In this document: positions 12,139 to 62,023 of the stretch, one piece after another
Position numbering within the stretch: the first letter of the stretch is position 1
How the letters are laid out: the number at the start of each line of letters is the position of its first letter
Assembly (NCBI RefSeq): GCF_016804325.1
Contig: NZ_CP043627.1
Coordinates: 3,299,001 to 3,363,000 of the forward strand
Source: Methylobacterium aquaticum
Lineage (GTDB): Bacteria > Pseudomonadota > Alphaproteobacteria > Rhizobiales > Beijerinckiaceae
Reading direction: 5' to 3'
DNA: 64,000 nucleotides
The notes under the pieces: generated by a model
Seen by the model: the letters and a program-made list of their open reading frames with translations, nothing else
The model's database searches: none
What the model was told of the DNA's origin: nothing
Translations under genes and position numbers: made by a program

Positions 12139-12276
12139 GTCATTCCGGGGCCGCGAAAGCGGAGCCCGGAATCCAGAACCTCGGATGGATCAGGATCGAG
12201 CGGAAATCGTTCCGCTTTCTTCTGACTCACCTGAGTGTCTGGATTCCGGGCTCCGCTTTCGCGGCCCCGGAATGAC
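12139..12276. repeat. Repeat family A, copy 1 (38-bp inverted arms)
   Basis: A 138-bp element whose outer 38 bases form a perfect inverted repeat (12139-12176 with 12239-12276). The arms begin GTCATTCCGGGGCCGCGAAA and are separated by about 62 bases rich in GGATCGAGCGGAA-type sequence. Five more copies lie at 12509, 31410, 38296, 41231 and 45052. It has no coding content and lies between convergent genes. Confidence 0.9.
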
Positions 12277-12317: not shown

Positions 12318-12476
12318 CTGAGAGCCTGTTTGACTTGCGAAAATTTAGCTGCAACGACCTTTTTTATCCCTCTCGCGACCTCATCCTGAGGTGTTAGCCC
12401 ATCTTCGATGGGCTAACACCTCAGGATGAGGTCGTGTGTGGGAATCGGTGCTTGAGCCAATCAAACAGGCTCTGAG
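12318..12476. repeat. Repeat family B, copy 1: hairpin inside terminal inverted repeats
   Basis: AGAGCCTGTTTGA at 12321-12333 is repeated inverted at 12461-12473 (13 bp perfect). Inside is a near-perfect cruciform: 27 bases at 12377-12403 pair with 12407-12433 across a 3-base loop (arm starts GACCTCATCCTGAGGTGTTA). The flanks between hairpin and ends are A+T-rich. The layout resembles a small non-autonomous mobile element or a nested REP/BIME. No target-site duplication is obvious. Confidence 0.85.
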
Positions 12477-12508
12477 AGATTGCCGCATGCCATCCGATAG
12501 CTCTCGAC

Positions 12509-12649
12509 GTCATCCTGGGTCTCGTCGAAGACGAGAACCCGGGATCCATCACCGCCGAGGATTCGGGACGAAGCGGAACGCTGGCCGCCCTATTCTCAAC
12601 TGCCAGCGTTTATGGAGCCCGGATTCCGCTTTCGCGGCCCCGGGATGAC
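12509..12649. repeat. Repeat family A, copy 2 (diverged arms)
   Basis: This copy has the usual outer ends (GTCATCCTGGG ... CCCCGGGATGAC) and the right arm GGATTCCGCTTTCGCGGCCC. The left arm is changed to GTCTCGTCGAAGACGAGAAC, a hairpin of its own. It lies 33 bases from family B copy 1, so three elements sit side by side in the 790-base gap between the Wzc-like gene and the convergent acetyltransferase. The rest of that gap shows nothing I can name. Confidence 0.75.
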
Positions 12650-12810
12650 AGTGAGGATGTCGGTTCGGACGGATCACACGACGAGGCCGCGGCAGGTGGG
12701 GACGGTCGATGCTGAGATCATCGACCGTCGGTGCGGCTGCCCTCCCCCACCCTCACCCGCGATGCCGGGCAAACCCGGCACCGCCCGTGAGGGGGAACAC
12801 GTCGCGCCGG

Positions 12811-14829: not shown

Positions 14830-15130
14830 GACGTGCTGTGGAGACACGCCAGACGGCGCGGGCGCAGAGCACCCGGAAGCTGCCTTTGCTTGGAACGGGG
14901 AAACCCGATCCGCACTCGGGGCAAGGAGAAACAAGCCTCTTCGGTGTCGGCCTTTGGAGGGCCGACGAGACCAAAAAAGCCCGTTCGTCGTTGCTTTAAG
15001 CTGCGTCCCCCGTGGAGAGCGGGGTTCGCCGGTTTTGCCTCCGGCTGCCGGTTGTTGTCGGGGTCCGGTGTTTCCACCTGGATGCCGGCCGGAGGGATCC
15101 ACCCTTCCCGGCCATCGATCCTTTAAGACC
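14830..15130 (-). promoter_or_regulatory. Structured 5' leader of the decarboxylase gene, candidate speF-type RNA
   Basis: The 709-base gap between decarboxylase and glucan gene is far longer than a promoter needs. Its decarboxylase-proximal part is full of stems on the reverse strand: a perfect GTCGGCC/GGCCGAC hairpin (14946-14966), CCGGCAGCCGG near 15040-15053, and a GGCCGG/CCGGCC pair near 15083-15112. The speF motif (Rfam) is a known leader upstream of alphaproteobacterial ornithine decarboxylase genes. Position, strand and length fit, but I could not verify the consensus. The stretch 15131-15431 shows no gene and should hold both promoters. Confidence 0.45.
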
Positions 15131-15431
15131 CCTGGCGGCTGTCCGGCCTCTTGTCCGGATGCCCACCAACCGGCACGCGGCCACAGGCACGTGCGAAATT
15201 GGGCAAGGCGGTAGATACGGACCATGCCCCCCGACCGCAAGCCCCGATCTCCCGATTTCCGGCGGAATTCCCCAGCGTGGCGCGGGAGATACAGCGGGCG
15301 GCGGGAGCGGGTCCGGCACATGACGACACCGTCATGCCGCGGGGCCTTCTCAAGCGGCGCCGGACGGGCCATTCAGCGCGGCGACGCACGAGGCGGCCGT
15401 TCAGCCGGGACGCCCTATTCTCCGGGACACC

Positions 15432-27857: not shown

Positions 27858-27969
27858 GACCTCGTCCCGAGGTGCGACCGTCAGGGAGCCTCGAAGGGGG
27901 TCTCCAGGCGTCTCCGAGCTTGCCGGAGCCCTCCTTCGAGGCCGCTGCGCGGCACCTCAGGATGAGGTC
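27858..27969. repeat. Repeat family B, copy 2 (core only, degenerate)
   Basis: Starts GACCTCGTCCCGAGGTGCGA and ends GGCACCTCAGGATGAGGTC, with the GCCTCGAAGGGGG ... CCCTCCTTCGAGGC module between. The arms match imperfectly and the outer AGAGCCTGTTTGA repeats are absent. It fills much of the 399-base gap after rpmF; nothing else was recognised there. Confidence 0.8.
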
Positions 27970-50805: not shown

Positions 50806-51060
50806 CTGAGAGCCTGTTTGAGCAGCGTGATTTGACAAAAACTGAGAAAAATCAGGAGATATCCTACCCTTCCACCTCATCCTGAGGTGTTAGTCGATCG
50901 CAGATCGACTGACCTCGAAGGAGGGCTCCAGAAGCGTCTGCGATCCCTGGAGCCCTCCTTCGAGGCTCACTTCGTTCGCACCTCAGGATGAGGTTAGCGG
51001 GTAGGATGATCCCGTCCGCCTCAAATATTGGGTAAAAATCCTGCTCAAACAGGCTCTCAG
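50806..51060. repeat. Repeat family B, copy 3: 255-bp element with 20-bp terminal inverted repeats
   Basis: CTGAGAGCCTGTTTGAGCAG (50806-50825) is exactly inverted at 51041-51060. A+T-rich arms of about 50 bases enclose a G+C-rich folded core (about 50875-50998), which starts CACCTCATCCTGAGGTGTTA, includes GACCTCGAAGGAGGGCTCCA with its inverse, and ends TTCGCACCTCAGGATGAGG. It is the best preserved copy with complete ends. It has no coding capacity. Confidence 0.9.
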
Positions 51061-51320
51061 AATGAGGTTGGACGATCAGATGATCCCGCCCCACTCAAAT
51101 AATTATAGAAAATCTCGTTCGAACAGGCTCTGAGGTGTCAGCCGATTGAAAATCGGCTGACCTCGAAGGAGGGCTCCAGGGATCGCAGAGACTTCTGGAG
51201 CCCTCCTTCGAGGTCAGTCGATCTCTGATCGCCAACACCTCAGAATGAGGTGGAGGGATAGGCTATCCCATGATCCCTTTCAGTGATGGTCAGACCGATG
51301 CGCTCAAACAGGCTTTGAGG
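51061..51320. repeat. Repeat family B, copy 4, abutting copy 3
   Basis: Directly after copy 3 comes AATGAGGTTGGACGATCAGA, an A+T-rich arm ending TCGAACAGGCTCTGAG (51118-51133). A further core follows (CTGACCTCGAAGGAGGGCTC with its inverse, about 51158-51216), then AACACCTCAGAATGAGGTGG, a second arm and CTCAAACAGGCTTTGAGG. It is a diverged copy, possibly joined to copy 3 by recombination at shared ends. The bases 51321-51522 show no gene, repeat or clear signal apart from AT-poor sequence before the convergent kinase stop. Confidence 0.75.
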
Positions 51321-51522
51321 CACTTCCTCAGCAACGAAAAGGGTTCGCGCGCCGGAGCATTGTGCGACGAGGCGGATACCGGTCCGTCGCGGACGATGCG
51401 GCAGCGTCAAACGTCCGGAGGGCTTCGTGATTGCAGCGCGATCGCGAAGCGGCATGTCTTCGCGAAGCGACATGTCATGCCAAACGAAACCTCGACCGGA
51501 TTTCGGCTCTGCCGAGGACCGA

Positions 51523-55936: not shown

Positions 55937-57980
<2,044 letters not shown>

Positions 57981-58139
57981 GTAACGGCGCCACTGTCCGG
58001 CGACGGGTCGGGTTTGTCAATCGCGGGTCGCGGAACGCTGCGGCATCCAGGCCGTCGCGCCGATGGTCGCGCCGCCTTGTCCCCCGCCCGCCCGGCGCCC
58101 CAGATACCGTGAGATGTCCCCGTCTTTCAGGAGCCTGCC

Positions 58140-61784: not shown

Positions 61785-61990
61785 CTGGAACTGTTTGAGC
61801 AGGCCCCCTGTCGAAAAAATCAATAGATCTGCAAATCCCACCCACTCACCTCATCCTGAGGTGCGAACGAAGTGAGCCTCGAAGGAGGGCTCCAGAAATC
61901 GCCGAGACTTCTGGAGCCCTCCTTCGAGGTCAGTCGATCCGTGATCGACTGACACCTCAGGATGAGGTAAGTGGGTGGGATACCCAACCC
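61785..61990. repeat. Repeat family B, copy 5
   Basis: Arms of 29 bases (61835-61863 and 61953-61981, ATCCCACCCACTCACCTCAT onwards) match with one mismatch. Between them the left half has GCGAACGAAGTGAGCCTCGA and the right half TCAGTCGATCCGTGATCGAC, so the inner modules differ on each side. The outer end is only partly kept (ACTGTTTGAGCAGGCC). It begins 7 bases after the receptor stop. Confidence 0.88.
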
Positions 61991-62023
61991 CCTTTTCTTT
62001 CCGATAGCTCCTCAGGCAGGCGC

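Follow-up and report, generated by a model that had tools for sequence, protein, structure and literature searches.

Probable IS5-family MITEs with a REP/BIME-like palindromic core, and their nested copies, in the genome of Methylobacterium aquaticum

In the accessible portions of the literature, the IS1031 group of the IS5 family is described as having a 3-bp target and a single ORF (PMC2516522), and MiniMdi3 of M. extorquens as a MITE of ~400 bp that is related to ISMdi3 and present in few copies (PMC2680597). REPs are described there as established targets of insertion sequences such as ISPsy8, ISPa11, ISPpu9/10, ISRm19, and ISRm22, and the mismatched direct repeats found at REP-inserted insertion sequences are put down to recombination (PMC1525189). 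REPs without a dedicated transposase are also on record (PMC3733652).

We analysed repeats in a 64,000-nucleotide stretch of the M. aquaticum genome (the window), in which a sequence-only reading had proposed five copies of a modular palindromic element, termed Family B. Two systems overlap in these repeats: a MITE and a REP/BIME-like palindromic module. Very probably, the repeats are IS5-family MITEs with a REP/BIME-like cruciform core, and an IS1031-like transposase recognises their ends (GAGCCTGTTTGA), inserts them at CTNAG, and duplicates TNA. The earlier interpretation was thus partly supported: its mobile reading was right, and the anatomy differs. The features of the window, with coordinates counted from its first nucleotide, are as follows:

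12322–12472, no strand assigned: class II MITE, short form of 151 bp, with perfect 12-bp ends and TGA on both sides
12379–12431, no strand assigned: short 53-bp form of the palindromic module, within the MITE at 12322–12472
27860–27967, no strand assigned: module without MITE ends
50807–50809, plus strand: left flanking triplet TGA of the class I MITE
50810–51056, plus strand: class I MITE, full length 247 bp, with 16-bp inverted ends
50875–50993, plus strand: 119-bp palindromic four-way-junction module in the class I MITE; its outer stem reaches ~50861–51007
51057–51059, plus strand: right flanking triplet TCA, unequal to the left TGA
51060–51130, plus strand: partial element B, derived from another class I MITE and comprising its right part, from the CTNAG of the right module arm to an end with one mismatch
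51131–51133, plus strand: triplet TGA separating partial elements B and C
51134–51315, plus strand: partial element C, the right part of a third element, comprising the module from the CTGAG of the left arm onward and an end with one mismatch
51316–51318, plus strand: triplet TGA, the same as 50807–50809; candidate duplication of the oldest insertion
61787–62023, no strand assigned: decayed class I-like MITE with three mismatches in each end; full module at 61849–61967

The family proved to be real. All the modules named in the sequence-only reading were present, and none of 100 dinucleotide shuffles of the window reached the observed numbers of ends (GAGCCTGTTTGA, ≤2 mismatches, 12 matches vs 2.7 expected), cores (CTCGAAGGAGGGCTCCAG, ≤3 mismatches, nine matches vs 0.18 expected) or arms (CCTCATCCTGAGGTG, ≤3 mismatches, 12 matches vs 2.1 expected). 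Two of the five proposed copies correspond to MITEs with intact ends (12322–12472 and 50810–51056); the remaining material consists of two partial elements, one decayed element and one module without ends. An element does exist at the copy placed at 61785, with decayed ends, whereas the copy placed at 27858 showed no terminal inverted repeats within three mismatches at the expected distances. The fourth copy (51061–51320), taken for a single element, is actually two partial elements. Its abutment on the third copy was seen correctly, and the abutting stretch, 50810–51315, fits nested insertion. A perfect 20-bp inverted repeat is indeed present at 50806/51060, as reported; only 16 bp of it (GAGCCTGTTTGAGCAG) belong to the element, the outer 4 bp being target DNA (C + TNA).

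Searching Rfam gave no match at the coordinates of the repeats. It did return, within 14835–15204 (minus strand), a speF leader and, upstream of it, the sRNA ar45, as well as a TPP riboswitch at 57876–57988 (minus strand). A different palindromic repeat, of the GTCATTCCGGGGCCGCGAAAGCGGAGCCCGGAATCCAG type, lies on both flanks of the class II MITE (12140–12276 and 12505–12650), and 51355–51451 holds a further dispersed repeat, with stretches of 74–90% identity in many congeners and at ≥5 further sites in this genome.

We then followed the ends and the module through the whole genome (7.28 Mb, five contigs), a search that the sequence-only reading had proposed. The 12-bp end GAGCCTGTTTGA was found 245 times with ≤1 mismatch, against eight times for the reversed pattern, and the arm CCTCATCCTGAGGTG had 460 exact matches, against none for the reversed pattern. 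The MITEs come in size forms of 247, 263, 216–218, and 151 bp, and the 12-bp ends are common to all of them. At least 36 matches to a 255-bp query covered ≥249 bases at 83–100% identity; this number is a lower bound, as 40 of the 273 candidates were scored. Two of the 36 lie near the two ends of contig C1 (L006 and L007), where a stretch of at least 3.2 kb is 99.9% identical, indicating that this contig may overlap itself. The pair was counted once in all figures with n = 29.

The 30 copies compared were the best matches to the window copy rather than a random draw. All start and stop at GAGCCTGTTTGA, mostly with ≤1 mismatch and at worst with three. Flanking duplications, which the sequence-only reading had suggested looking for, were recovered as identical triplets in 24 of the 30; T-N-A stood on both sides in 27, mostly in a CTNAG context. 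The six copies with unequal triplets include the full-length copy of the window, 50810–51056 (TGA vs TCA). Unbiased samples were obtained from contiguous stretches of three genomes, 1.58 Mb in total (780 kb of this genome and 400 kb each of congeners G016 and G020). MITEs counted here as end-matched had ≤1 mismatch in both ends and T-N-A on both sides, and the triplets were identical in 17 of 19. The elements are therefore short, with terminal inverted repeats, fixed ends and a target-site duplication, and a full-size insertion sequence with the same ends exists in congener G019, as is characteristic of MITEs. Given the fixed ends and flanking duplications, the proposal of a non-autonomous mobile element was sustained. 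MITE matches were also present in four plasmid records, all from Methylobacterium. On plasmid C2 of this genome, locus L095 includes a stretch with 81.6% identity to part of a Pseudomonas sp. K-62 plasmid, in a region where merA and a MerT-family protein are annotated.

As had been stated, the window itself carries no transposase: none of the IS5 or Y1 transposase matches falls there. A partner encoded elsewhere had been expected to be either a RAYT or an insertion sequence. The second option was supported, in the form of an IS5-family insertion sequence with the same ends in G019, and the first was not, as no RAYT was found in this genome. G019 holds nine units of 917–919 bp bounded by the MITE ends. 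All nine have CTNA immediately ahead of the left end, T-N-A is found in all, and the triplets are identical in seven. One translated unit encodes an IS5-family transposase in a single open frame (NF033580, 161.7 bits against a cut-off of 110; also DUF4096 and DDE_Tnp_1). With an IS5-type DDE transposase and a 3-bp TNA duplication, an IS5-family insertion sequence of ~919 bp with the same ends and target is the likely partner of the MITEs, and a transposase of the G019 type would move them in trans. On the basis of its ends and target, we provisionally assign this insertion sequence to the IS1031 group.

Loci with related transposases were returned from named genomes in 77 cases, 39 of which were scored. 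Both ends were present with ≤1 mismatch in 17, nine of these with identical triplets. Transposases at 11 of the 17 two-ended loci are 61–91% identical and come from Methylobacterium, an uncultured Beijerinckiaceae MAG, and one Roseomonas; the other six are relatives at 36–38% identity from acetic acid bacteria and a Xanthobacter, in which the last base of the ends differs. Many of the remaining 22 scored loci were cut by contig ends or had a single end only. In M. aquaticum itself, a direct protein search gave only remnants of the G019-type transposase, whose matched parts are 67%, 54%, and 51% identical (one remnant has an intact end), and no functional copy of the partner was found. An intact-looking IS5 transposase in this genome is just 35% identical, with no such ends nearby within two mismatches. 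More generally, none of the 25 Pfam IS5 transposase loci of the genome (10 + 15 domain matches) had an end pair, and eight had a single two-mismatch match.

An origin of the MITE as an internal deletion of the insertion sequence was considered and rejected, with significant similarity detected at the ends alone; since the two share only their ends, simple deletion does not account for the MITE. Congener G016 (L259–L262) contains 938-bp insertion sequence copies in which the transposase match is spread across two frames, along with 706-bp internal-deletion derivatives of the insertion sequence that have the same ends.

Comparison with congeners was made for four sites, one of which gave bridging matches among the matches listed (eight genomes of 111, seven of them aligned). 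At this class I locus, near 1946935 on contig C1 (G000:C1), the element is present in M. aquaticum, and in seven congeners the two genes that flank it are found side by side with no insert. The spacer at that locus has diverged, so this is a presence/absence difference and not a base-perfect empty site. A lack of fixed ends and of empty sites in relatives had been named as grounds for doubting mobility. The ends are fixed and the element is absent at one locus in relatives, even if the site is not exact to the base. For the window's own locus, no match bridging both flanks was seen among the congener matches listed.

The module inside the MITE consists of CCTCATCCTGAGGTG, a side hairpin, CCTCGAAGGAGGGCTCCAG, and a 15-nt loop, followed by the mirror image of this order. 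Its core segment was 35 nt long in all 32 cases. Paired palindromic units in inverted orientation, an intergenic location, and a high copy number give it a BIME-like organisation, which supports the suggestion of a REP/BIME-like system nested with a mobile element. The suggested swapping of inner hairpins between copies was not borne out: side arms do vary between elements, but two arm types account for most of the 30 best class I copies, and the apparent swapping is in part the same module read on the opposite strand. At G000:C1:3081662, a different inner sequence (tcataccaacggtcgttgg...) comes after a single module arm, which hints at a second module type; next to the MITE of L009 lies a sequence similar to this inner stretch.

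Each outer arm of the module includes CTNAG (CCTCATC-CTGAG-GTG and CAC-CTCAG-GATGAGG), making both MITEs and free modules landing sites for further copies. Excising the MITE together with one triplet restored a 15-bp module arm (≤3 mismatches) at 21 of 30 class I sites, or 20 of 29 without the duplicate, three of the 21 positives being at the three-mismatch limit. Under the strict test, in which excision had to restore a complete module, three of 30 sites were positive, two of them being one duplicated site. In the 780 kb of this genome, CTNAG was found 774 times; 302 of these sites fell outside crude gene calls, and exact module arms accounted for 61, of which 59 were intergenic. The preference of class I MITEs for arms (20 of 29) was strong when compared with all CTNAG sites (p = 4e-16) or intergenic ones (59 of 302; p = 1e-8) and weak when compared with CCTNAGG sites (61 of 129; p = 0.015). 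Nested elements accounted for four of 16 in the coordinate-ordered set, with spans left out, and two of six in the 780 kb, against none of 13 in the G016 and G020 samples and none of seven in class II. Nesting thus characterises class I in this genome, and the frequent landing of one MITE class in its own repeat would explain how the window came to hold a patchwork of nested copies.

In the simplest history of the stack at 50806–51320, element C would have inserted into host DNA, element B into the left arm of C, and element A, the full-length copy, into the right arm of B; the last step would have been recombination of C with A through their similar left halves. More generally, repeated landing in modules would build nested stacks, and recombination between like copies would trim them into mosaics such as this one, as its flanking triplets suggest. 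We infer that the abutment and mixed combinations of modules are better explained by insertion into a palindrome followed by recombination than by hairpin swapping.

The association between module and MITE was tight. All 19 end-matched MITEs from the contiguous stretches had at least one module arm. Among 35 places picked by their ends in congeners G016, G020, and G012, 32 held an element and three held none; every one of the 32 had an arm (both arms in 29, one clear arm in three). Thirty coordinate-ordered exact ends in M. aquaticum yielded 18 candidates, two of them spans over neighbouring copies, and an arm was found in 17; the sole candidate without an arm, 117 bp long with unequal flanks, may be spurious. 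The DNA between the ends and the module nevertheless differs among class I, class II, and the G016 type. This difference and the abundance of modules in intergenic DNA, with 460 exact arms in the genome, would suit MITEs and modules that are independent of each other, the module being a frequent cargo and MITE families having arisen repeatedly from insertion sequence ends flanking a module. We consider this account plausible, if somewhat short of an even chance; chance capture should leave some MITEs without a module, and all 19 carried one. We also offer, tentatively and with some doubt, the opposite view that the module is a working part of the MITE rather than cargo, and that IS5-type transposition spreads RAYT-less REP-like palindromes, each of them a new landing pad. 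If so, the system would feed its own growth. The module stays central in several species while the DNA out to the ends changes, perhaps because its fold joins the two ends or makes insertions tolerable.

Modules also occur by themselves: 25 of 61 in the three sampled genomes had no end on either side within three mismatches, while the reversed end pattern beside the 61 was never found with ≤2 mismatches and six times with three. Several congeners have modules and no exact TNA-end match (G008, for example, has 109 arms and no such match), and in G016 free modules show more variation in their arms than MITE-borne ones do. These observations favour the module as the true mobile unit, REPIN-like and moved by a RAYT or other enzyme, with the outer ends as a second layer that sometimes picks up a module. 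Such an arrangement is unlikely, as it leaves the TNA duplications at the outer ends unexplained and the genome yielded no RAYT. A RAYT was rejected as the partner: the genome has one Y1 transposase domain match in total (Y1_Tnp), which looks IS200-like, with no module within 1.5 kb of it and one end-like match with three mismatches. In addition, four of 18 G008 modules keep a left end with ≤2 mismatches, against none for the reversed pattern, and these decayed ends make part of the free-module pool look like old MITEs. Free modules would be old MITEs in part and, perhaps, an independent family in part.

Folding of the module predicted a multi-branched cruciform, or four-way junction (RNA −100.7 kcal/mol, z −11.2), and the whole MITE folded as DNA had a z of −13.1. 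The predicted folds show the closing stem, a 23-nt side hairpin, and the core; a second side hairpin, of 13 nt, rests on covariation. In a set of 18 modules sharing one length class, pairing holds in 97.9% of cells. The observed pairing, the number of double-changed cells, and the covariation score were reached in none of 500 shuffles; the number of double-changed pairs (six) and of pair types were reached in 30 and 388 of 500, respectively, and neither is exceptional. Module sequences were picked by a pattern requiring exact outer arms, which builds the invariance of the outer stem into the set; the covariation evidence is confined to the two side hairpins. None of 30 modules lay inside a called gene. 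By crude gene calls, 16 were between tandem, 12 between convergent, and one between divergent genes (n = 29; 19.6% divergent expected by length, p = 0.03). It is highly improbable that the repeats are hairpins under selection as RNA or DNA (at transcription ends, as mRNA stabilisers, or as supercoiling sites) and spread without transposition, as the very stable fold, the six pairs changed on both sides, and the 28 of 29 modules between tandem or convergent genes could suggest, because fixed ends with TNA duplications and a same-ended insertion sequence would be left unexplained, the context bias also follows from loss of harmful insertions, the symmetric changes could come from palindrome correction during replication, and a secondary role is compatible with mobility. 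The placement of modules is what would be expected of DNA tolerated away from promoters.

A full-text search of the open-licence literature found no paper in which the 13-bp module arm is printed as a sequence. Six 12-bp strings had matches in 14 papers: one match stands in a PCR primer table (PMC3477587), and the other 13 papers look unrelated in the text available. A limited search of open-licence papers, as far as their accessible text goes, found no report of the family or of an IS5-type MITE with a REP-like cruciform as both core and landing site. The repeats matter in two respects: MITEs of a well-known transposase family house much of the palindrome population of a genome in which no RAYT was detected, and nested mosaics resembling module swapping can be built by a transposon that carries its own frequent target.

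When compared with known systems, the partner insertion sequence resembles the IS5 family and its IS1031 group in matching the IS5 transposase model, in its length of ~900 bp, in its GAGCCTGTTTG ends and in its TNA target; its relatives in acetic acid bacteria have GAGCCTGTTTGG ends. The window elements differ from insertion sequences of that group in lacking a transposase and having the ends alone in common. The module is like REP, BIME, and REPIN elements in its paired inverted palindromes, intergenic location, and high copy number, as described in the accessible text of PMC3733652, PMC3116915, and PMC2817692. It differs from them in that no RAYT was found and much of its population lies inside DDE-type MITEs. 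To the extent that MiniMdi3 is described in the text available, the window MITEs share with it their non-autonomous nature, insertion sequence ends, several copies, and a partner insertion sequence, and differ in their size (151–263 bp), tens of copies, and REP-like core. As far as the accessible accounts of REP-targeting insertion sequences extend, the window MITEs are also like these elements in inserting into a palindromic intergenic repeat; unlike them, the class I MITE itself carries the target palindrome, so its copies nest in one another.
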